A DNA stretch of 64,000 nucleotides, taken from an uncultured Gammaproteobacteria bacterium (GTDB lineage Bacteria > Pseudomonadota > Gammaproteobacteria > Nitrosococcales > Methylophagaceae). Position 1 is the stretch's first letter. Every line of letters begins with the position of its first letter. The notes beneath the pieces were generated by a model. The model searched no databases. It was not told the origin of the DNA and worked only from the letters and a program-made list of their open reading frames with translations. The stretch spans positions 62,001 to 126,000 of the forward strand of contig CAJQOM010000016.1 in assembly GCA_905479985.1 (NCBI GenBank), in the 5' to 3' direction. Positions 9,719 through 29,438 of the stretch are shown one piece after another. A program made the position numbers and the translations under genes.

Positions 9719-10927
9719 TTAATATCGTGCACTATCATCGCTATAAATAATCCCTTTGTCTTTTGCCTGAGATTTAATCGATTGGTATATTTTGTCATCA
9801 AGCGAGTCTTTTTTACTGCCTGATTCAGCGACTTTTTGTTTTAAGTATTGCTCACGTTTTTCTGCTAACGTCTTTATGTCACTTTCAATCTCACTACGTT
9901 GTTGTTTTGTTTTTGCAATATGGGCTGTTTGCTGTTCTACATCCATGCCTTGAATTGATGCCGGTAATTGTTCTACCGGAATATCTTTTAAGGCAACATC
10001 ACCACTACTGATTTCTTCGATTAAATCACCTTTGCCTAATAAGTTCTTTTTACCACTTTTTGATACATTAAACGTCGCTCTTCGTGCCAGTGACTCTGCA
10101 CTCGCTTCTTTGCTCAGTTTATCGGTCGCTCTCATCTTCAGCTCTTGCTCTATTTTTTCACTTCTATTGCCATAATAAAGACGGGTATTGTCTAATTGTC
10201 TTGATAACTTAGCGAGTTGTTTGTCATAGGGCGTAGAAAACGCAACAGCATTACCGGTCTGTGCTACCTGAAAAAAGTCACCAGCCCCTAGACTCGCAAT
10301 ATGATCCCACTGCAGTTTTGTTTCATACTCATCCCCTGCTTGAATGGTATTGATAATAATCCCCTTACGTTTAGCCAGCGCTATCGTTTTTGGGTACTTC
10401 ACATCGTCTTGATAATCCATATGTGCCGGTGCATCCCCCACTAGGAATATCACTTTATAAGTATGTGGGGTTGAGCTCCACTGCATTGAATTAACAGCAT
10501 CATAAAGTGCTTGGTTAACACTCTCTGGTCCATCACCACCGCCACCGGCTTTAAAATCAATTAATTTGGCATACACCGAATCTAAGTCATTCGATAAAGC
10601 GACACTCCGCGTGACATAAGCATCGCCACGATCACGGTAGGCGATCAGGCCCATTTTAATGTCGGGTGCACTTTGAGCTGACGCCATCGTACTGGCAATA
10701 GACCATATTTTTTCTTTTGCAGCGTGGATAAGGTGTGACATGCTGCCTGTGGTATCGAGTGCAAAGACAACTTCTATCTGCGATTGCTGCATAATCGGAT
10801 GTTCAATGATCGGTCTGTGATGGTGGTGTGGTGATGCAATCTGAGCCAGCAAAGGCGAAGATGAAAGTAATAATAGGCTCAGTGCTGATAAACCTAATAG
10901 GTGCTTGCTGTGTTGTTTGGTAATCAT
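9719..10927 (-). CDS. Exported von Willebrand factor A domain protein
   Basis: The 402-residue protein has a signal peptide (residues 1-29, ending LLAQI) and then a short His-rich stretch. A vWA domain occupies about residues 50-240 with an intact MIDAS motif DTTGSMS (Asp58) and the later GGGGDGPESV and FLVGDAPAHMD segments, so it should bind a divalent metal and a protein ligand in the periplasm. The C-terminal third is charged and helical, probably a coiled coil. It is divergent from a response regulator/histidine kinase pair with about 200 bases between; a shared regulatory region and a sensing partnership are inferred, not shown. Confidence 0.85.
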   Translation of the reverse strand: MITKQHSKHLLGLSALSLLLLSSSPLLAQIASPHHHHRPIIEHPIMQQSQIEVVFALDTTGSMSHLIHAAKEKIWSIASTMASAQSAPDIKMGLIAYRDRGDAYVTRSVALSNDLDSVYAKLIDFKAGGGGDGPESVNQALYDAVNSMQWSSTPHTYKVIFLVGDAPAHMDYQDDVKYPKTIALAKRKGIIINTIQAGDEYETKLQWDHIASLGAGDFFQVAQTGNAVAFSTPYDKQLAKLSRQLDNTRLYYGNRSEKIEQELKMRATDKLSKEASAESLARRATFNVSKSGKKNLLGKGDLIEEISSGDVALKDIPVEQLPASIQGMDVEQQTAHIAKTKQQRSEIESDIKTLAEKREQYLKQKVAESGSKKDSLDDKIYQSIKSQAKDKGIIYSDDSARY

Positions 10928-11126
10928 AATAATGCCCCTGTAATAAATAACAGTTGAATGAATAAGGAAATAACAATGTGCGTTGATTGACGCTTTGTTA
11001 TTCAGTTCGAGATTCAGTTTATGACAACGGAAAAGTGAACAATAGACAGGGTTTGGTAAACTTTAAATGGTGCTTTTTTTACAAAAAAGTTACGTTAGAA
11101 CTGACGGATCGACATACACTATCAAC

Positions 11127-11834
11127 ATGCAAAATAAACAACGAATATTATTAGTTGAAGATGAAGCAGCAATCCGCCAAGGCTTGATCGATGTCTTTAT
11201 CTATCATGGCTATGAGGTTGATTTTGCTGTCGATGGTGGCGAAGGGTTACAAAAAGCATTAACGGGGAAATTTGATTTAATCTTATTAGATGTCATGTTG
11301 CCGACGCTCGATGGCTTTAGTATTTGCAACCAGATCAGGGAGAAGAATCGAGAACAAGCCATTATTATGCTGACAGCGAAAAGCAGCGAAGACGATATTA
11401 TCGAAGGCTTAACGCTGGGTGCTGATGATTATATTGCCAAACCTTTTTCCGTGACCCAATTACTATTAAGAATACAAGCGGTATTACGACGGACATCGAC
11501 CCAACTGGCATCAAACCAACAGATTACCTTAGCCGATAATGTGCTGATTGATTGTCAAAATATGGCTGCAACAACGAGCAACGGCACCTTGACCTTTACC
11601 CGACGAGAAATGGATATATTGTTGTATCTCGACGCCCATTCACAACGCCCCGTCTCACGAGATGAATTGCTGAATAAAGTCTGGGGTTATGCCGATGATA
11701 TTGAGCTTGAAACGCGGACAGTCGATATTCATATTGCTAAGTTACGCCGTAAATTGGAACCGGACTCATCACACCCCCGGTACTTAGTGACGGTGCGTGG
11801 CGCCGGCTATCGCTTAATGACGGCGACGGCATAA
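11127..11834 (+). CDS. OmpR-family response regulator
   Basis: From the ATG at 11127 the product is 235 residues; the longer frame from 11067 adds 20 residues that no receiver domain needs. The receiver domain has the acidic pair (VEDE, residues 10-13), phosphoacceptor Asp55 in LLDVMLP and the conserved Lys in AKPFS. A winged-helix Trans_reg_C domain follows, with LTFTRREMDILLYL, SRDELLNKVWGY and TVDIHIAKLRRKLE. It should act as a phosphorylation-controlled DNA-binding regulator. Its stop is two bases from the start of the histidine kinase gene, so the pair is one transcription unit. Confidence 0.93.
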   Translation: MQNKQRILLVEDEAAIRQGLIDVFIYHGYEVDFAVDGGEGLQKALTGKFDLILLDVMLPTLDGFSICNQIREKNREQAIIMLTAKSSEDDIIEGLTLGADDYIAKPFSVTQLLLRIQAVLRRTSTQLASNQQITLADNVLIDCQNMAATTSNGTLTFTRREMDILLYLDAHSQRPVSRDELLNKVWGYADDIELETRTVDIHIAKLRRKLEPDSSHPRYLVTVRGAGYRLMTATA

Positions 11835-11835
11835 C

Positions 11836-13956
11836 ATGGCCAGCCAATTACTCACGGGCTTAAATAAACATCGCTTGCAACGCGGCATTATTTTATTCTT
11901 TTTAGCCTTGGCGATCCCCACAGCCATACTCATCCAACAAGCCTATAGCCAATTAAAATGGGAATCCTTTCATCAACATCATTTAATGGCAAAAGACGTT
12001 GCTGCACGTATTGATGCCCAGTTTTCACAATTGATTAATGTCGAACAGCAACGTTCATTCAGCGATTATAGTTTTTTAACATTAGCCGGCGATCCTGCTG
12101 CCAATTTTCTACAACGATCACCACTCTCGGCTTACCCTATTCAATCTGCTATCGCCGGCGTGATTGGTTATTTTCAAGTCGATTCTGCCGGTAATTTAGT
12201 CACGCCCTTATTACCCGAACAATTAAGCCAAATATCTCGTTACGGCGTCACAGAAACCGACCTTAATGCCCGAGTCGCATTGCAAGGACAGCTGCATGAT
12301 ATTTTGAGTCAAAACAGCTTAGTCCGTAATGATAAAACACGACAAGACAATCAGTTTGACAGTATCGCGATGACCGAACAGGCTAAAGAAGAAGTGCAGC
12401 TGGATGATGATGTTGAAGTAATGTCAGCTGATTCAGTTGAATCTGCCCCTTATAGCATTAGCCCACCCGTATTAGCAGAGCCAGACCGAGCTTACCAAGG
12501 GCAGCAAGGCTTTGATCAATTAAACAGTGCAACGTCAACTCAGTCGCCAATACAATCCAAGCTAGGACGAATAGAAGACCTAAAGTTGAAACAGGATTAT
12601 TTGTCAGAGAAAGCACCGCAGGCCCAAAAAGACATGGCAGCGGCCACCAAAAAGAGTCAACGGAAAGTAACACCAGCCAAACGAACCGAATCCGTCGCCT
12701 TACCTAAACAGGTTGAACAAGCCTTAGAGAAATTTGAAAATGAACTAAAGCAACGCTTTCCTGAAGTCGCTGCACAAGAACGACTGGACACACTACCTAT
12801 CCGTACCTTTGAAAGCGAGATTGATCCCTTTGAATTTAGTCAATTGGCCAGTGGCCACTTTGTGTTGTTTCGCACTGTTTGGTTAAATGGCCAACGTTAT
12901 ATTCAAGGCTTACTCATCGAGAAACAGCCCTTTTTAGATGCATTGGTAAAGGGCGTTTTTAACGACACTGCATTAGCAAAAATGAGCCAATTATTAGTCG
13001 TCCATCAAGGGGATGTTTTAGCTGCTTTTAGTGAACAAGATAGGTCAAAGAGTTACGCCCAAAGCACTGACTTATCGGGTGAATTACTGTATCAAACGCA
13101 ACTGTCAGCGCCTTTGAATGATATGCAGTTGCTCTTTAGTATTACTAAACTTCCCATTGGGCCAGGTGGCCGCGTGATTATTTGGCTCGCCGTGATCGTT
13201 AGCCTCGTATTACTGGTCGGTTTTTATTTATTATATCGCTTAGGCATGAGTCAAATTAAGCTCGCTAACCAACAGCAAGACTTTGTCTCAGCCGTGAGCC
13301 ATGAGCTTAAAACACCACTGACATCGATTAGAATGTATGGCGAAATACTCAAGCAAGGCTGGGCAACAGAAGATAAGAAAAAACAGTATTACAATTTTAT
13401 CTTTGATGAAAGTGAACGATTATCGCGTTTAATCAATACCACGCTATTAATGGCTAAGTTCAGCAGAAATAAACAACAAGCTGACCTTAAAATGGTCTCT
13501 GTCGCTGAGTTAATGCAAAACTCCCTTTCTCAGATCAGCTCACAAACTGAAAGGGAAGGCTTTGAGTTAACATTATCTTATGATGCCGTTGCAGACAAAA
13601 ATCTCATGATTGATCCCGATTGGTTTGCCCAAATCATGATTAACCTAGTCGACAATGCGATTAAGTTCTCACAACATGGTGAGCAAAAACAGATTGATTG
13701 TCAGTGCACTCAAAGTACCGATGGTACGATTAACTTTAGTGTCAGAGACTATGGCCCCGGCATTGCAAAAAAACAAATGAACAAGATTTTCAAACTGTTT
13801 TATCGTAGTGAAGACGAATTGACACGCGAAACAGTCGGTACGGGCATTGGTCTCGCTTTGGTTCACCATATGGTACTGGATATGAACGGAAAAATAGCTG
13901 TGACTAATAGCAAACCTGGTGCTCAATTTACTGTCCGTTTTATGAGTCAGCCTTAA
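11836..13956 (+). CDS. Membrane sensor histidine kinase with large periplasmic domain
   Basis: The 706-residue kinase has TM1 at about residues 17-38 and TM2 near 448-470, enclosing about 410 periplasmic residues. The middle of that region (roughly 180-290) is low-complexity and rich in Gln, Ser, Lys and Asp, likely a flexible linker between two sensor parts. The cytoplasmic portion has the HisKA box with His489 in AVSHELKTPLTSIR, the N box NLVDNAIKFS, and ATP-lid motifs DYGPGIA and GTGIGLALVHH. No HAMP domain is evident. It follows the response regulator gene immediately. Its signal is unknown; the divergent exported vWA protein is a candidate partner. Confidence 0.92.
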   Translation: MASQLLTGLNKHRLQRGIILFFLALAIPTAILIQQAYSQLKWESFHQHHLMAKDVAARIDAQFSQLINVEQQRSFSDYSFLTLAGDPAANFLQRSPLSAYPIQSAIAGVIGYFQVDSAGNLVTPLLPEQLSQISRYGVTETDLNARVALQGQLHDILSQNSLVRNDKTRQDNQFDSIAMTEQAKEEVQLDDDVEVMSADSVESAPYSISPPVLAEPDRAYQGQQGFDQLNSATSTQSPIQSKLGRIEDLKLKQDYLSEKAPQAQKDMAAATKKSQRKVTPAKRTESVALPKQVEQALEKFENELKQRFPEVAAQERLDTLPIRTFESEIDPFEFSQLASGHFVLFRTVWLNGQRYIQGLLIEKQPFLDALVKGVFNDTALAKMSQLLVVHQGDVLAAFSEQDRSKSYAQSTDLSGELLYQTQLSAPLNDMQLLFSITKLPIGPGGRVIIWLAVIVSLVLLVGFYLLYRLGMSQIKLANQQQDFVSAVSHELKTPLTSIRMYGEILKQGWATEDKKKQYYNFIFDESERLSRLINTTLLMAKFSRNKQQADLKMVSVAELMQNSLSQISSQTEREGFELTLSYDAVADKNLMIDPDWFAQIMINLVDNAIKFSQHGEQKQIDCQCTQSTDGTINFSVRDYGPGIAKKQMNKIFKLFYRSEDELTRETVGTGIGLALVHHMVLDMNGKIAVTNSKPGAQFTVRFMSQP

Positions 13957-21030: not shown

Positions 21031-24000
21031 CTAACTAGCTTTATAAGGCTTACCCTCAAACTTCCGCATAATCACATAAAAAATCGGGGTAAAGAATAGG
21101 CCAAAGAACGTCACACCCAACATCCCTGAGAACACGGCGACACCAATATCATTTCGCATTTCTGAACCCGCACCAGTTGATAACACCATGGGCACGACCC
21201 CCATAATGAAGGCGAATGACGTCATCAAAATCGGCCTTAATCGCATATGACTGGCTTGAATGGCTGCTTTAACTGTCTCCATGCCTTGAATTTCAAGTTC
21301 TCTTGCAAACTCAACAATCAAAATCGCATTCTTACTCGCCAGCCCTGCCAACACAAATAGACTGATTTGAGTGAAGATATTATTATCACCATCGGTTAAC
21401 CAAATCCCTGTCACCGCCGCTAAAATGGACAAGGGCACAATGGCAATCACCACTAATGGCAAAGCCAAACTTTCATATTGCGCGGCCAATACCAGAAAGA
21501 CTAATAACAGACAAAGTGGGAAAATATAAAACGCGGTATTACCACTTAAAATTTGTTGATACGTAAGCTCGGTCCATTCGTATTCGAACCCATTAGGTAA
21601 AGTCTGTTCAAGAATTGTTTTAATCGCTTGTTGTGCATCTTCACTGGCATAACCCTGGGCGGTATCACCGTTAATATCTGCCGATAAATAGCCATTGTAA
21701 TGCGCAGCACTTTCGGGGCCATAGCTCTCCGACATGGCAATAACACTGCCCAGTGGCACCATATCGCCATTACTGTTCCTCACTTTCAAGTTAGTGACAT
21801 CTTTTGGGTCAGAACGGTATGCTTCATCAGCCTGAGCGATCACGCGATAAGTCCGGCCAAACTGATTAAAATCATTAATATAAAGCGACCCCAAATAAAT
21901 CTGCATCGTGTCAAAGATCTCTTTAACATTTAGTCCTAACTGTTTTGCCTTAGTCCGATCTAAATCGGCATAAAGTTGAGGCACATTGATCTTATAATTC
22001 GAATACACACTGGTTAATGCCGGGTGCTGCCATGCTTGTTGTTGCACGCTATCAACCACTTCTGCCAACTTCTCATAACCTTGGGCACCCCTATCTTCGA
22101 TTTGTAGTTTAAACCCACCCGTTGTCCCCAAACCACTCACTGGTGGTGGTGGAAAAATCGCCACAAAGGCTTCCTTAATACCGCCATATTTCATCTGTAA
22201 TTTCTGAGCAATAGCCGCTGCAGATAGATCGTCACCTTCTCTTTCAGAAAAAGGGTCTAAGGTCACAAACACAATCCCAGCACTGGCACTATTCGTGAAA
22301 CCATTCACTGACAACCCGGGAAACTGCACCGCACTTTCAACACCAGGTTCGGCCAACGCAATCTCACCCATTTGCTCAATAACATGTTCTGTTCGCTTCA
22401 ACGTTGCCCCATCAGGTAACTGGGCAAAACTAATCAAGTATTGCTTATCTTGTGGTGGCACGAAGCCTTTTGGAATTCCGTTGAAACCAACTACTGTCAC
22501 CGCAAGCAAAGCCAAATACACAACAAATGACAAAGACTTATGCTGCAATAAGCCCCCTACTGAATTGGAATAGCCTCGTGAACTGCGATCAAAAAAGCGA
22601 TTAAAGGCCTTAAACACACCACCGAACAAGAAATCGATAATACGCGTTAAGCGATCTTTAGGCGCATCATGTGGTTTTAATAACAAGGCTGCTAAAGCGG
22701 GACTAAGCGTTAAAGAATTAATCGCTGAAATCACCGTTGAAATCGCAATTGTTAAGGCAAATTGTTGGTAAAACTGGCCTGTTAAACCACTGACAAAGGC
22801 AATCGGCACGAATACCGCCACCAGCGTTAAGGAAATGGCAATAATCGGCCCACTGACTTCTGTCATCGCTTGATAAGCGGCATCTAGCGGCGTTAAACCA
22901 CGCTCAATATTTCGCTCAACATTTTCCACCACGACAATGGCATCATCCACCACGATCCCGATCGCCAATACCAAACCAAATAACGACAAGGTATTAATCG
23001 AAAACCCAAACAAATACATTAATGAAAACGTGCCGATAATCGACACGGGCACGGCCAATAACGGAATAATCGATGCCCGCCATGTTTGTAAAAACAACAC
23101 CACAACTAACACCACCAAAGCCAAGGCTTCTAGTAACGTCACAATGACGGCTTTAATCGATTCCTTAACAAATATCGTTGGGTCATAAACCACTTGATAA
23201 TCAACACCGACAGGGAAACTTTCCTTCAATTTCGCCATGACAGCCCGAACATCATTTGAAATTTCAATCGCATTAGCACCCGGCGCTTGGAAAAGCGGCA
23301 CAGCGACTGCTGGCTGATTATCTAACATTGAGTTTAAACCATGATCAGCCGCCGCTAACTCTATCCGCGCCAAATCCTTAAGCCGGGTGATTTGACCACC
23401 GGCCCCGGCCCGAATAATAATTTGTTCGAATTCTGAAACTGACGTCAGCCGGCCTTTTGCATTCACTTGTAGCTGTAGCTGCACACTATCGCTTGTTGGT
23501 GGACCACCAATAATACCGGCCGCCACTTGTACATTTTGTTCTTGAATCGCAGCGACCACATCATTGGCTGTCAGGCCTTGCTCAGCAATCTTGTTTGGAT
23601 TCAACCAAATTCGCATTGCATAATCGCCAGAACCAAAGAGCTGCACAGAACCTACACCACGCACTTTGGCTAACTGATCTTTAACGTGGATCAAGGCGTA
23701 GTTACGTAAATACAGCTCGTCGTAACTATTATCGGGCGAGAGTAAATGCACCACCATCGTCAAGTCAGGTGAGCTTTTCACCACCGTCACACCTATCTGA
23801 CGTGACACATCTGGCAACCGGGGTAGCGCCTGTGAAACGCGATTCTGAACCATTTGCTGCGCCAAGTCAGGATCAGTCCCAATTTTGAACGTGACCGTCA
23901 ATGTCATCCTGCCATCAGATGTCGCCTGTGATGACATATACAACATATTTTCGACGCCATTAATCTGCTCTTCTAATGGCCGCGCCACCGTTTCTGCGGT

Positions 24001-24174
24001 GACCTTTGGGTTCGCACCCGGGAAAGAGGCTGTCACCACAACAGAAGGCGGCGCCACATTCGGGTATTCTGATACCGGCAATTGAAACATCGCCAATAAG
24101 CCTGCAATGAAGATCAATAAAGACAATACGGCAGCAAAAATAGGACGATCAACAAAGAACCTGGAAATATTCAT
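21031..24174 (-). CDS. RND efflux transporter permease (HAE1/AcrB type)
   Basis: The 1047-residue inner-membrane protein has the AcrB/MexB architecture: N-terminal MNISRFFVDRPIFAAVLSLLI with TM1, two large periplasmic loops and twelve membrane helices. The proton-relay pair is present in GIVVDDAIVVVENVER and the TM10 lysine in LASKNAILIVEFA. It exports amphiphilic compounds as a trimer together with a membrane-fusion protein and an outer-membrane channel. The membrane-fusion gene is directly upstream with 29 bases between; no TolC-like gene or regulator is adjacent, so the channel must be encoded elsewhere. Confidence 0.96.
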   Translation of the reverse strand: MNISRFFVDRPIFAAVLSLLIFIAGLLAMFQLPVSEYPNVAPPSVVVTASFPGANPKVTAETVARPLEEQINGVENMLYMSSQATSDGRMTLTVTFKIGTDPDLAQQMVQNRVSQALPRLPDVSRQIGVTVVKSSPDLTMVVHLLSPDNSYDELYLRNYALIHVKDQLAKVRGVGSVQLFGSGDYAMRIWLNPNKIAEQGLTANDVVAAIQEQNVQVAAGIIGGPPTSDSVQLQLQVNAKGRLTSVSEFEQIIIRAGAGGQITRLKDLARIELAAADHGLNSMLDNQPAVAVPLFQAPGANAIEISNDVRAVMAKLKESFPVGVDYQVVYDPTIFVKESIKAVIVTLLEALALVVLVVVLFLQTWRASIIPLLAVPVSIIGTFSLMYLFGFSINTLSLFGLVLAIGIVVDDAIVVVENVERNIERGLTPLDAAYQAMTEVSGPIIAISLTLVAVFVPIAFVSGLTGQFYQQFALTIAISTVISAINSLTLSPALAALLLKPHDAPKDRLTRIIDFLFGGVFKAFNRFFDRSSRGYSNSVGGLLQHKSLSFVVYLALLAVTVVGFNGIPKGFVPPQDKQYLISFAQLPDGATLKRTEHVIEQMGEIALAEPGVESAVQFPGLSVNGFTNSASAGIVFVTLDPFSEREGDDLSAAAIAQKLQMKYGGIKEAFVAIFPPPPVSGLGTTGGFKLQIEDRGAQGYEKLAEVVDSVQQQAWQHPALTSVYSNYKINVPQLYADLDRTKAKQLGLNVKEIFDTMQIYLGSLYINDFNQFGRTYRVIAQADEAYRSDPKDVTNLKVRNSNGDMVPLGSVIAMSESYGPESAAHYNGYLSADINGDTAQGYASEDAQQAIKTILEQTLPNGFEYEWTELTYQQILSGNTAFYIFPLCLLLVFLVLAAQYESLALPLVVIAIVPLSILAAVTGIWLTDGDNNIFTQISLFVLAGLASKNAILIVEFARELEIQGMETVKAAIQASHMRLRPILMTSFAFIMGVVPMVLSTGAGSEMRNDIGVAVFSGMLGVTFFGLFFTPIFYVIMRKFEGKPYKAS

Positions 24175-24203
24175 ATTTTCCCTAACGTAAGAAAATGCAG
24201 TAA

Positions 24204-25361
24204 TTAATGTGTCGCGCTAGTCGACACAGGACTAATCGTAACAGGCATCCCCGGGCGAACCTTCGCTAAGCCATTGGTGATAATGCGTTCTCCAGACACG
24301 AGACCACTGACCACTTCACGCGACACACCTGCTTGCTGACCCAACACCACTTCTCGATAAGCCACGACATTGTCATCCCCAACAACCAGTACAAATTTCT
24401 TTGACTGATTGGTACCAACGGCTGCCTGTGGAATCATCAAAGCAGAGAATTCCTCCGCCGATCCCAGCTCAATATTGGCATACATACCTGGTTTCAATAT
24501 CCCATCTGTATTATCAAACAAAGCCCGGGCTCGAATGGTCCCCATTGAACTATCCAACTGATTATCAAACGAATATAAATGCCCTTGATAAATCACTTGA
24601 TCGTCACCCGACAATCGCAAAGTCACCGGCATTTTTTTCAATTCAACAGCAGAGCGTGCCGCTTGAATATAACGTCGTTCATCGACATTAAATTCAGCAT
24701 AAACTTGTTGCTGAGAAACCAACGTCGCTAACACCGGCGCCCCAGTATTCACCTCAACCACATTACCTTCCGTGAGCTCAGCACGGCTAATACGGCCATC
24801 AAACGGCGCTCGTATCGTTGCGTAATCTAAATCTATTTTCACCTCTGCCAAAGTACTTTTTACTTCAGAAATAGTAGCCAAAGACACTTCATACTCTGCT
24901 TTAGCTTGATCAAATAAACTTTGTGAAATCAATTTCTTATTAACAAGACCTTTCGTTCTTTTCAATTCTTGTTCAGCTAGTTTGTAGCGAGAACGTGCCG
25001 AGACTAATTGCGCTTCGACCCTTTTTACCGTCGCTTCAAAAGGCCTTGAATCAATCAAAAATAAGGGAGCCCCAGCTTTAACTAACTCACCTTCTTGAAA
25101 TAAGACTTGCTCGATACGGCCACCTACCAATGGCTTAATGTCGACAGTCTCGACCGCTGCCAACTTACCCGAATACCCTGTCCATATACGTAACAATGAA
25201 GGCATGACGGTCATGACTTCGACTGCTGGCGGTGGCGGCATCATTGCTTGGGCTGAATTTGCTGCCTCAGCTTCCGGCTTTGACAAGGCCCAAGCACCAA
25301 CAGCGGCAATAAGCAGCAAGCTAATAAAAGTACCTTTTAGAGAAGAAAGTCCCACGGTCAT
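24204..25361 (-). CDS. RND efflux periplasmic adaptor (membrane-fusion protein)
   Basis: The 385-residue protein has an N-terminal hydrophobic anchor (about residues 9-27). It then shows the adaptor order: a lipoyl-like half (VDIKPLVGGRIEQVLFQEGELVKAGAPLFLID), a helical hairpin (VEAQLVSARSRYKLAEQELKRTKGL), the second lipoyl half (YATIRAPFDGRISR) and beta-barrel/membrane-proximal domains ending GLVSGERIITNGLAKVRPGMPV. It bridges the RND permease encoded just downstream to an outer-membrane channel. No lipobox Cys is seen, so it is probably anchored by its N-terminal helix. Confidence 0.94.
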   Translation of the reverse strand: MTVGLSSLKGTFISLLLIAAVGAWALSKPEAEAANSAQAMMPPPPAVEVMTVMPSLLRIWTGYSGKLAAVETVDIKPLVGGRIEQVLFQEGELVKAGAPLFLIDSRPFEATVKRVEAQLVSARSRYKLAEQELKRTKGLVNKKLISQSLFDQAKAEYEVSLATISEVKSTLAEVKIDLDYATIRAPFDGRISRAELTEGNVVEVNTGAPVLATLVSQQQVYAEFNVDERRYIQAARSAVELKKMPVTLRLSGDDQVIYQGHLYSFDNQLDSSMGTIRARALFDNTDGILKPGMYANIELGSAEEFSALMIPQAAVGTNQSKKFVLVVGDDNVVAYREVVLGQQAGVSREVVSGLVSGERIITNGLAKVRPGMPVTISPVSTSATH

Positions 25362-25747: not shown

Positions 25748-28042
25748 ATGGCAGTAAGTAATAAAATTGAGGTAGCCGAAGGCTTTTCAGTTCACCATGT
25801 TGTGTGTCCACATGACTGCCCTGATTCCTGTTCCATGCTCGTCACCAAAGACGATACCACCGGTAAGGCCATTCAAATACAAGGTGACCCCACTCACCCG
25901 ATCACCCGTGGTCATCTTTGTAACAAAGTGAATCACTATTTGGACTTTGTTTATAACGACAACCGCGTCCTCTATCCGCATAAGCGTGTTGGTCCTAAAG
26001 GTCCCGGTGCTAAGTTTAAGCGCATTTCGTGGGATGAAGCCCTCACGACCATCACCGACAATTTCAAACAAACCATCGAAGATTATGGCTCCGAAGCCAT
26101 TCAACCTTATTCATACTCCGGCACCATGGGCATGGTGGGTTACTGGACCATGGACAGCCGCTTCTGGAATAAAATGGAAGCCGCTAGACTAGAACAATCG
26201 ATTTGTATCTATGCCGCTATGTGGGCGGGCCTCCATACATACGGTATGGCACATGCCAATACATCTATCCATGAAGCTGCCCAAGAAGCAGACCTTATTA
26301 TCCTCTGGGGCACTAATTTAGTCAGTACCGGTGTCCACGCCATCCCCTTCATCCGAGAAGCCCAAGAACGCGGTGCCAAACTCGTTGTCATCGATCCACG
26401 TGAAACCCGCACCACCATGATGGCAGACTGGCATATTCAACCTCGGCCCGGTACGGATGCTGCACTTGCCTTAGGCATGATGAAAGTCATCGTCGATAAT
26501 AATTTGCACGATGTTGAATTCTTAAAAGAACAAACCGTTGGTTGGAAAGCATTAATCGACAAAAAGCTACCTGAATACACCCTAGAAAAAGTCGCCAAAA
26601 TTACCGGTGTCAAAGCCAAAGATATCGAAAAGTTCGCACTCGAGTATGGCTCAACCAAAAAGTCCGTTATCAGAGCCAACTATGGCCTAAATCGTCATCA
26701 AAATTCTGGCCAAATGTCTCGTGCTATTTTAACTTTGCCCTGCATCACAGGCGCATGGCGTGAAAAATGTGGTGGTGCGGGTTTTGGCAACCTCGAAGAA
26801 ATGTGGCTTCGCCACGATCTCAACAAACTTCATCGCCCCGACCTAGGTGAGCGTGGAAAAAAACGTCAAATCAGTATGGTACAAATCGGCCGGGCCCTTT
26901 CTGACAACATTGGCTACGATGGCGAGCAACTCGACCCACCGATTAAATCCATGTTTATCTACAACTCCGATCCTGCCAATTGTGCCCCTAATACTAATGG
27001 TGTTCGTAAAGGCCTCATGCGTGACGATCTCTTTGTAGGCATTCACGAAACCTTCTGGACCGACAGCTGTAACTATGCTGACATCGTCCTGCCAGCCGAT
27101 ACCCAACTCGAACGCATGGATTTGGTGGCGACCTACGGCAACTGGTATTACGGGATGAACGAGCCCGTTATCGAGCCGCTAGGAGAAAGTGTTCGTAACT
27201 CAGAAATGTTTAGAAAACTCGCTGACAAAATGGGTTACAACGATACCGATGATAATGCCTTCACTCAAACCGATGAAGAGATCATTCGCGATATCCTCGT
27301 CGATGATACCGTCAACCCATTAATGGAAGGCATTGATTACGAAGAACTCAAAGCCAATGGTTGGGCCCGAGCCAATACCGGCACCAGCCGCCGAGACTTT
27401 TTAAATCAGGGCTGGCCAACGCCCAGTGGCAAAATCGAAATCTACAGCGCCGCTTTGAAAAAACAAGGCATCGACCCACTCCCTAGCTACGTACCAGAAA
27501 TAGAAGGCCAAGAAGATCCCAAACGGAAACAGTTTCCACTTCAAGTGTTAAGTTGTGCCTCACACTATTTTATCGGTGATTCATTCCAATCTGTCCCACG
27601 GCTACAAGCCATGATGTCTCGCCCAACGGTAGAACTCAACCCCAAAGATGCCAAAAAACGTAGCATTACCGATGGCGATCTCTGCCGAATTTATAACGAC
27701 CGGGGAGAAACTTTCGCCCATGCCGTCATTATCAAAAAGCTCATTTCCGGCGTCTGTAATACCCAAAAACAATTCAAAGGCAGCAATACCTATGGCGGCG
27801 TCAATATCAACGCCCTCAACTCCGAAATGCTCACCGATTTTGGTAATAGCCCCACCTTCTATTCCTGCTTAGCTGAAGTCGAACTGGCGAGTGATCAAGT
27901 TAAAAAAGATATCTTGGACAAGTGGGGTGGCAAAGCAGGCTATATCCAACGCTGGCGTGACGATCCAAAAAACAAAGACATCAAAGCCACTGACGCTCAA
28001 ATTATCGCTGCTGCTAAAAAAGTACATCAAGGGATATTTTAA
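25748..28042 (+). CDS. Molybdopterin oxidoreductase, substrate unknown
   Basis: The 764-residue protein belongs to the DMSO reductase/formate dehydrogenase superfamily. An N-terminal 4Fe-4S site is formed by Cys20, Cys24, Cys28 and Cys58 (CX3CX3CX29C). Bis-MGD binding segments follow: LIILWGTNLVSTG, KLVVIDPRETRTTMMADWHIQPRPGTDAALALGMM and a C-terminal molydop-binding domain (PTVELNPKDAKKRSITDGDLCRIYND). A Cys in SICIYAAMWAG is a candidate molybdenum ligand. There is no Tat leader, so it is cytoplasmic. The flavin/iron-sulfur reductase begins two bases downstream, implying an NAD(P)-linked complex. Formate dehydrogenase- or nitrate reductase-like roles are possible; I cannot assign a substrate. 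Confidence 0.85.
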   Translation: MAVSNKIEVAEGFSVHHVVCPHDCPDSCSMLVTKDDTTGKAIQIQGDPTHPITRGHLCNKVNHYLDFVYNDNRVLYPHKRVGPKGPGAKFKRISWDEALTTITDNFKQTIEDYGSEAIQPYSYSGTMGMVGYWTMDSRFWNKMEAARLEQSICIYAAMWAGLHTYGMAHANTSIHEAAQEADLIILWGTNLVSTGVHAIPFIREAQERGAKLVVIDPRETRTTMMADWHIQPRPGTDAALALGMMKVIVDNNLHDVEFLKEQTVGWKALIDKKLPEYTLEKVAKITGVKAKDIEKFALEYGSTKKSVIRANYGLNRHQNSGQMSRAILTLPCITGAWREKCGGAGFGNLEEMWLRHDLNKLHRPDLGERGKKRQISMVQIGRALSDNIGYDGEQLDPPIKSMFIYNSDPANCAPNTNGVRKGLMRDDLFVGIHETFWTDSCNYADIVLPADTQLERMDLVATYGNWYYGMNEPVIEPLGESVRNSEMFRKLADKMGYNDTDDNAFTQTDEEIIRDILVDDTVNPLMEGIDYEELKANGWARANTGTSRRDFLNQGWPTPSGKIEIYSAALKKQGIDPLPSYVPEIEGQEDPKRKQFPLQVLSCASHYFIGDSFQSVPRLQAMMSRPTVELNPKDAKKRSITDGDLCRIYNDRGETFAHAVIIKKLISGVCNTQKQFKGSNTYGGVNINALNSEMLTDFGNSPTFYSCLAEVELASDQVKKDILDKWGGKAGYIQRWRDDPKNKDIKATDAQIIAAAKKVHQGIF

Positions 28043-28044
28043 TA

Positions 28045-29169
28045 ATGACAACGATTAAAACCAGTGGCTTTAACGACCCCTTTGATAACCTATTACCCTC
28101 ACCTGATACTGCCATTCAACGTAAACGCGTCAATAGCCGTCCGGGTAAAATAACTAAAATTACCAATCTCACTCACGACACGATTGAAGTCACCGTCACC
28201 TGCGACAAAAACACGCCCCCTTTCAATGCCAAAGCCGGCCAATACGGTACGCTGAAAGTCGATGGCATCGACCGACCTCGTGCCTATTCTTTTGCGAAAG
28301 CCCCCGTACTCGAGAAAAAAAACCAAGTCACCTTTTTTATTCGCTTAATTGAAGGCGGCGAATTATCAGACTGGTTTAAACAAAAAAAACGCACCAGAGA
28401 AAAAGTTATTGTCAGTGGCCCAATGGGCAAATTTGGTCTTGATAAGTCTAACGACACCATTGTTTGTATAGCAGGCGGTAGTGGTATGAGTGCCATCAAA
28501 GCCCTTGTTGAACAAGCCAGCCATCAATCACTCGCTCGCGACTGTTTATTTTTTTATGGCGCTAGAACACAAGCTGATCTCTATTGTCTTGAAGAAATGG
28601 AAGCCATCAAGCAACAATGGCATCCTGACCACAGCTTCACCTTCATCCCCGTTTTATCAGAAGAATCCCATGACTGTGACTGGCAAGGCCCCAGAGGGTT
28701 TGTCACCGAGTATTTAAAAAGCCATTACATTGATACCCGACAACTGGATATCAATCACATCAAGGCATTCTTCTGTGGCCCGCCAGCAATGATTGATCAT
28801 GGCGTTACGGTATTACAAGATGCTGGATTACCCTCCGAAGCCATTCGATATGACAAATTTGAAGATATCCGGTCACCTGCACCAGTCATTGATAATCGAA
28901 AATGCACGCTTTGTGACGAGTGCCTATTAGTCAAACCCATCGATAACTGCATCGTTGAAACCAGTGCCTTTAGTCATTCACGACAAACAGGGATCACTGA
29001 CATCGAAACCGTCAGACCCGGACGAACCTCTGGTCTGTATTACAGCACCCTTTTAATCAACAATGACCAATGTATTCGCTGTTATGCCTGCGTCGATGCC
29101 TGCCCTCACAATGCCATATCACCCGCAAATCTAGCAATACCACAAGTGCTGAAGCTCATTCAGTTATGA
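28045..29169 (+). CDS. FAD/NAD(P)-dependent reductase fused to a two-cluster ferredoxin domain
   Basis: The 374-residue protein joins a ferredoxin-NADP reductase-like module to a ferredoxin. The FAD-binding barrel is near residues 30-135, with RPRAYSFAKAP for flavin binding; the NAD(P) domain is near 140-265, with VCIAGGSGMSAIKAL and FFCGPPAMID. The C-terminal part has CX2CX2CX8C (CTLCDEC...NC) and CX2CX2CX3CP (CIRCYACVDACP), enough for two 4Fe-4S clusters. It should pass electrons between NAD(P)H, flavin and the molybdoenzyme encoded two bases upstream. Plant-type 2Fe-2S domains are more common on such reductases, so this arrangement is unusual. Confidence 0.85.
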   Translation: MTTIKTSGFNDPFDNLLPSPDTAIQRKRVNSRPGKITKITNLTHDTIEVTVTCDKNTPPFNAKAGQYGTLKVDGIDRPRAYSFAKAPVLEKKNQVTFFIRLIEGGELSDWFKQKKRTREKVIVSGPMGKFGLDKSNDTIVCIAGGSGMSAIKALVEQASHQSLARDCLFFYGARTQADLYCLEEMEAIKQQWHPDHSFTFIPVLSEESHDCDWQGPRGFVTEYLKSHYIDTRQLDINHIKAFFCGPPAMIDHGVTVLQDAGLPSEAIRYDKFEDIRSPAPVIDNRKCTLCDECLLVKPIDNCIVETSAFSHSRQTGITDIETVRPGRTSGLYYSTLLINNDQCIRCYACVDACPHNAISPANLAIPQVLKLIQL

Positions 29170-29237: not shown

Positions 29238-29438
29238 ATGTCAGTAGCCAGAGTTACAGAAATTATCGCAACATCATCTAAAAGCTTTGATGATGCCGTT
29301 GAAGAAGGCGTAAAACGCGCCACCAAAACATTAGAAAACGTCACATCAGTCTGGGTTAAAGACCAGTCTGTTGATATTAAGAAAGACAAAATAGTCGCTT
29401 ATAAAGTCAACCTTAAAGTCACCTTTATCCTTAAATAA
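29238..29438 (+). CDS. Dodecin flavin-binding protein
   Basis: The 66-residue protein is a dodecin: MSVARVTEIIATSSKSFDDAVEEGVKRATKTL, then the conserved Trp of VTSVWVKDQSV and a C-terminal strand YKVNLKVTF. Dodecins assemble as hollow dodecamers that store or buffer flavins in the cytoplasm, stacking the isoalloxazine against the Trp. It is the first gene of a tight three-gene run with DUF937 and Kbp-like genes. The flavoprotein gene upstream could make flavin buffering relevant, but this is inference. Confidence 0.93.
   Translation: MSVARVTEIIATSSKSFDDAVEEGVKRATKTLENVTSVWVKDQSVDIKKDKIVAYKVNLKVTFILK

Follow-up and report, generated by a model that had tools for sequence, protein, structure and literature searches.

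A cytoplasmic molybdoenzyme with an apparently dedicated ferredoxin-bearing NAD(P)H reductase and a possible tie to AlkB alkane metabolism in marine Gammaproteobacteria

The window analysed here, a 64,000-nt stretch of the genome of an uncultured gammaproteobacterium, carries two adjoining genes for a molybdoenzyme of the bis-molybdopterin guanine dinucleotide (bis-MGD) type and for an NAD(P)H reductase. From their sequences, we tentatively read this pair as an undescribed cytoplasmic NADH-linked molybdoenzyme system that works in the reductive direction and is tied to aerobic, AlkB-dependent alkane metabolism, an assignment to which we give somewhat less than an even chance. How the system is built, its conservation and exclusive pairing, its co-occurrence and linkage with AlkB, and the fact that it differs from known families are read directly from sequence. 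We found neither the family nor its ferredoxin domain nor the AlkB link described in the open-access literature (subscription papers were outside the search), and no description of the system came from the Fdh4A lead or the open-access literature on the host family. The lack of a matching characterised family agrees with the suggestion of a preliminary description of the window that the system is a new NAD(P)H-linked one.

That description had also placed a cytoplasmic bis-MGD enzyme two bases upstream of its reductase, and both parts of this arrangement hold. The two open reading frames are intact and lie on the plus strand, with two bases separating the stop of the first (25748–28042) from the start of the second (28045–29169). 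The first encodes a 764-aa catalytic subunit in which PF04879, PF00384 and PF01568 all score above their gathering cut-offs (PF00384 at 2e-42). These Molybdop_Fe4S4, Molybdopterin and Molydop_binding domains, along with the DMSO reductase fold of its AlphaFold model (predicted local distance difference test score 92), place it in the DMSO reductase (MopB) superfamily. By inspection, neither a Tat nor a Sec signal is seen at its N-terminus, which begins MAVSNKIEVAEGFSVHHVVCPHDCPDSC. Close to the start lies the cluster motif CPHDCPDSC, whose [4Fe-4S] ligands C20-x3-C24-x3-C28 (25805–25831, plus strand) are joined by a fourth, C58 (25919–25921), and are unchanged across 50 homologues; their spacing matches that of DmsA, whereas formate dehydrogenases and NapA have C-x2-C-x3-C. 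The predicted molybdenum ligand, Cys153, is followed by Ile154 (26204–26209, plus strand) and is likewise unchanged across the 50 homologues, aligning with Sec140 of FdhF, the Cys of NapA and NasA, and the Ser of DmsA and BisC. Both window proteins are conserved over their full length at 49–96% identity in other genomes, which shows that these are no chance open frames.

The second gene encodes a 374-aa reductase (PF00970, PF00175 and Fer4 families) in which, as had been proposed, an FNR module is fused to a ferredoxin with two 4Fe-4S motifs. The FNR module (28147–28800, plus strand) comprises residues 35–130, binding flavin adenine dinucleotide (FAD), and NAD-binding residues 142–252; it is followed by a C-terminal 2x[4Fe-4S] ferredoxin domain (28894–29124, plus strand) with the consensus CxxCDECLxVKPxxxCIVE ... 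CIRCxACxxACPxxAIS. Members of this reductase family share 49–88% identity, and the eight cluster cysteines (287, 290, 293, 302, 343, 346, 349 and 353) of the motifs C287-x2-C-x2-C-x8-C302 and C343-x2-C-x2-C-x3-C353-P are unchanged in all 10 members aligned. The closest relatives found for the FNR module are 2Fe-2S/FNR reductases encoded in the same genomes (40–45% identity). In a tree with four outgroup rows, which have long branches, the window-type reductases form a single clade (support 100/100), which joins the AlkB-linked 2Fe-2S reductases to the exclusion of the outgroups (97/98). The FNR module is shared with these AlkB-linked enzymes and with oxygenase reductases of the BenC/AntC/MmoC type, but both of those carry an N-terminal [2Fe-2S] domain that the window reductase lacks, the latter having the C-terminal two-cluster domain instead.

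This ferredoxin domain appears to be the constant element of the system. In family f143, whose genomes measure about 1.0 Mb and whose molybdoenzyme is 56–57% identical to that of the window, the molybdoenzyme gene is preceded by one for a 570-aa GltD-type NAD(P)H flavoprotein. Flavoproteins of this type (PRK12771, AegA/YgfT) have a flavin module unrelated to that of the window reductase, yet the C-terminus of the f143 protein is the same ferredoxin domain (CVLCDECLLVKPIKDCIVE...CVRCGECEKVCPTNAIT, against CTLCDECLLVKPIDNCIVE...CIRCYACVDACPHNAIS in the window). Of 369 gammaproteobacterial genomes, a profile of the domain matches 10, exactly those that encode the molybdoenzyme at at least 57% identity (hypergeometric, 9e-20); the domain therefore looks like the enzyme's dedicated electron donor. 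From the domain swap in f143 and this complete co-occurrence, it follows that the conserved partner is the ferredoxin domain rather than the flavin module. Its presence on two unrelated flavoproteins further suggests that it is the part that recognises the molybdoenzyme, which makes the partner interface testable. The domain is also present in the genomes of loci L058 and L060, and the absence of a match in the genome of L057 is explained by a reductase cut by the contig end. It was not found in the more distant genomes of L064 and L066, and the distant molybdoenzyme homologues of Thermoleophilia (51%) and Anaerolineae (43%) are without it.

The preliminary description had called the pair an orphan and suggested surveying its conservation. 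Such a survey shows instead a pair conserved across several gammaproteobacterial families and tied to AlkB. Six of the 29 host-genus genomes, including that of the window, have the molybdoenzyme with the same reductase directly downstream (the other five at 83–96% identity), as do families f45 (80%), f165 (73%) and f40 (70–71%; genomes of 1.1 Mb) and two further metagenome-assembled genomes of uncultured gammaproteobacteria. Locus L058 carries a second molybdoenzyme copy (10001–12283) that has no reductase and reads SICTYAATEATTQTYG at the metal site, with Cys-Thr rather than Cys-Ile; its genome also holds another copy with a reductase, and the residue change points to a possible functional divergence of the Cys-Thr protein.

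AlkB was recognised as an integral-membrane oxygenase that matches alkane 1-monooxygenase structures (PDB 8sbb/8f6t, 8e-30) and has the histidine motifs HELAHT and NYLEHYG. At at least 58% identity, it occurs in 13 of the 369 genomes of the class, among them all 10 with the molybdoenzyme (2.5e-17), and within the host genus in 6 of 6 pair-bearing species against 3 of 23 others (Fisher P = 1.8e-4), counts that are uncorrected for shared ancestry, including the species tree within the genus. Linkage is seen in f45, where the genes lie in a block fabA-MerR-AlkB-x-x-dinB-molybdoenzyme-reductase-TraB (gene names assigned by eye). Parts of this block recur as dinB-molybdoenzyme-reductase-TraB in G787, as reductase-TraB up to a contig end in G788, as dinB-AlkB-MerR in f165 and as TraB-AlkB-MerR-fabA in f40. 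The related 2Fe-2S reductase has a GST-like gene beside it and at some loci the integral-membrane oxygenase too; among 28 genomes tested, it is found at full length in most of those with AlkB and in none of those without. It is missing from two host-genus members, G010 and G016, whose genomes are 81% and 67% complete. In every locus read, the GST-like gene precedes this reductase (L160 785–1462 and L163 7387–8034, both plus strand). The AlkB, GST and FNR genes, which have no rubredoxin close by, may form an undescribed arrangement for alkane or alkene oxidation of their own.

We next consider how the molybdoenzyme relates to known families. No NCBIfam model reached its cut-off, all matches being at superfamily level: in bits, score against cut-off, dmsA_ynfE (DmsA family) gave 308/778, formate dehydrogenase alpha 262.7/666, NasC 234.7/1100, bisC_fam 213/1018, PhsA 182/694, NapA 100.5/931 and AioA 76/359. 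A fold search with the AlphaFold model likewise indicated the superfamily only, with no clear nearest family and 15–24% identity among the matches listed. In a 46-row tree, which has long branches among its reference rows, the window clade (17 sequences) is supported at 100/100 and stands apart from FdhF and the host's own formate dehydrogenase, from NasA and NapA, and from DmsA and BisC. Scores, residues and tree thus all bear out the earlier view that the enzyme is no standard nitrate reductase, formate dehydrogenase or arsenite oxidase, and the tree places it in no characterised family with the same reductase partner. Its company is instead a wide uncharacterised MopB clade (CPHDCPDTC, about 700 aa) from Acidobacteria, Betaproteobacteria, Actinobacteria and Chloroflexi, which is roughly 36–44% identical and has the same cluster motif and the invariant Cys ligand. 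The two differ in the active-site stretch, RTICxxAG in the wide clade and QSICIYAAMWAG in the window clade, and in the separation of the latter at 100/100. In the loci examined, no conserved reductase neighbour was found for the wide clade; its recurrent neighbours are mostly host-lineage genes, apart from a ligase-like gene at 9 of 80 loci, and are insufficient to indicate function. Plasmid homologues of the molybdoenzyme yielded no informative annotation.

From these features we infer an electron path, a direction, a metal, a preference for NADH and a hydrocarbon role. The two genes would encode a soluble cytoplasmic two-component molybdoenzyme in which the 374-aa subunit takes up electrons from NADH at its FAD; NADPH is less likely because the reductase resembles those of the BenC/MmoC type. 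Electrons would then pass through the two C-terminal [4Fe-4S] clusters to the single N-terminal one in the 764-aa subunit and on to the bis-MGD metal, molybdenum or possibly tungsten, which has Cys153 as its ligand; there, a small substrate would undergo a two-electron reduction. The ferredoxin domain would serve as an enzyme-specific docking and donor unit to which an exchangeable flavin module, of FNR or GltD type, is attached. The system was probably assembled in an AlkB-bearing setting, with its flavin module taken from the lineage of the AlkB-associated 2Fe-2S reductases. We favour the reductive direction because this module derives from NADH-consuming oxygenase reductases, because the residues of formate oxidation are missing, and because an NADH-fed donor with low-potential clusters would operate here in an aerobe. 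As the pair occurs in marine bacteria that also carry AlkB, it probably serves hydrocarbon metabolism. More specifically, and with correspondingly greater doubt, it could catalyse an oxygen-tolerant molybdo- or tungstoenzyme step in the aerobic alkane metabolism of marine Gammaproteobacteria, acting on a product or by-product of AlkB and fed from NADH through an enzyme-specific ferredoxin domain borne by two unrelated flavin reductases.

What is new here is an enzyme-specific electron-donor arrangement and a physiological setting for an enzyme of the DMSO reductase superfamily. The molybdoenzymes known from hydrocarbon metabolism work mainly in the periplasm and without oxygen, like those of the ethylbenzene dehydrogenase type. 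If the reading is right, aerobic marine bacteria, some of them small-genomed, contribute an extra step to hydrocarbon turnover in the ocean, and part of the large uncharacterised MopB clade gains a function.

Beyond the shared ancestry left in the AlkB counts, several observations weigh against this interpretation. Three host-genus members carry AlkB without the pair, and in the host genome itself AlkB lies on other contigs (C8 and C34). Shared habitat or joint transfer may give the same pattern of co-occurrence, though a gene block that holds both AlkB and the pair suggests that habitat is not the whole explanation. In the AlphaFold model of the reductase, the ferredoxin half came out too poorly for use. 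Nitrogen-related genes border the pair in some lineages, as described below, and the same anatomy would fit NAD+-linked oxidation of a low-potential substrate.

This last possibility, in which the enzyme is an NAD+-reducing dehydrogenase that passes electrons from a C1, sulfite-like or aldehyde-like compound through ferredoxin and FAD, is the strongest of the alternatives, but we consider it unlikely. NAD-linked cytoplasmic bis-MGD enzymes are mostly formate dehydrogenases, the Fe-S flavoproteins of GltD type resemble AegA/YgfT, which are annotated as formate-dependent, and the host belongs to the Methylophagaceae (order Nitrosococcales). Against it stands the origin of the flavin module in a lineage of oxygenase reductases, which normally serve to oxidise NADH. 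Formate dehydrogenase in particular was rejected: the model for its alpha subunit stays under cut-off, its Cys/Sec-His is replaced by Cys153-Ile154, and the RGQNN motif is missing, though present in FdhF and in the formate dehydrogenase of the host. The host genome encodes four PF00384 proteins (a formate dehydrogenase, an assimilatory nitrate reductase, NuoG and the window enzyme), the first three named from their sequences rather than by profile search; the nitrate reductase gene adjoins nirB/nirD-like and nitrate-transporter-like genes. With separate genes for both, formate and nitrate seem to be already served by enzymes of their own.

A nutrient-acquiring reductase of an N-oxide, S-oxide, nitro or hydroxylamine compound, with the AlkB association incidental, strikes us as rather improbable. 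Midpoint rooting puts the window clade on the DmsA/BisC side of the tree, and the neighbours offer hints of nitrogen metabolism. In f40, the reductase gene has an ammonium transporter gene (Amt) downstream of it on its own strand (L164 5508–6716, minus strand). The genes that precede the pair on its strand in G010 and G016 encode an AmiS/UreI channel and a porin of the TorF type (L136 10902–12261 and L137 12356–13717, minus strand), with a possible link to substrate uptake. These nitrogen neighbours vary between lineages, however, whereas AlkB is conserved. The S- and N-oxide reductases DmsA, BisC and TorA were themselves rejected, as the window clade has an invariant Cys ligand where DmsA and BisC use Ser, scores low with the DmsA and BisC models and falls outside DmsA/BisC in the tree.

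Less probable still is a net non-redox enzyme akin to acetylene hydratase, performing hydration or group transfer at Mo/W(IV), with the NADH reductase merely keeping the metal reduced in an aerobe. Acetylene hydratase of Pelobacter acetylenicus (2e7z) is the PDB entry closest in sequence (phmmer 2.8e-54, profile 3e-63); it shares the bis-MGD fold, the cytoplasmic location and a Cys metal ligand followed by Ile, as in Cys153-Ile154. At the N-terminal iron-sulfur cysteines, the profile alignment is gapped, the residue comparison having covered formate dehydrogenase, NapA and DmsA. Nevertheless, identity is only about 24%, and acetylene hydratase ranks 12th in the fold search. It is also non-redox and has no NADH partner, while a dedicated, conserved electron donor implies electron turnover. 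The ergothioneine synthase MES illustrates that a metallopterin enzyme related to acetylene hydratase can perform non-canonical chemistry (PMC9516567), but it has a cysteine desulfurase domain that the window enzyme lacks.

That the enzyme is simply a divergent formate dehydrogenase, assimilatory nitrate reductase, thiosulfate/polysulfide reductase or arsenite oxidase is very improbable and largely refuted: it matches all of these families at superfamily level, but NCBIfam scores, tree placement, missing signature residues and the separate formate dehydrogenase and NasA of the host speak against it. NAD-dependent formate dehydrogenase and NasC/NasA are likewise cytoplasmic, NAD(P)H-linked bis-MGD enzymes with Cys or Sec, but belong to other clades, have other partner subunits and bear signature residues that are missing here. 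For assimilatory and periplasmic nitrate reductases, Cys-Ile stands in place of Cys-Met, and the NasC and NapA scores lie far under cut-off; for arsenite oxidase and the thiosulfate reductase PhsA, scores are under cut-off and no such partner gene adjoins.

The preliminary description had noted no cofactor or transport genes beside the pair. This is right for cofactor genes, moaC of the host genome being on another contig, but wrong for transport: an RND efflux pump pair (21031–25361, minus strand) lies directly upstream in divergent orientation, outside the operon. A scan for promoters and terminators gave results at chance level. Apart from a protein of NuoG size, the molybdoenzyme is the only PF00384 match above cut-off in G219, which has kept moaC; this is consistent with a cofactor pathway retained largely for this enzyme. 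MoaC was not detected in G079 (98% complete) or G294 (96% complete) despite their molybdoenzyme, while close relatives have it; either the assemblies have a gap there or the cofactor pathway has been lost.

Of the genus loci read, only those of the host genome (G000) and G003 have the RND pair beside the molybdoenzyme pair, whereas the htpG ... yaaA/TRAP genes on the flanks form a conserved block, which points to a variable site of insertion. Downstream, a gene for a 66-aa protein that by eye resembles dodecin, a flavin-storage protein (29238–29438, plus strand), starts 68 bases after the reductase. Three other members of the genus have a similar gene in the vicinity of the pair, in one case several genes away, and it is probably a genus-level neighbour.

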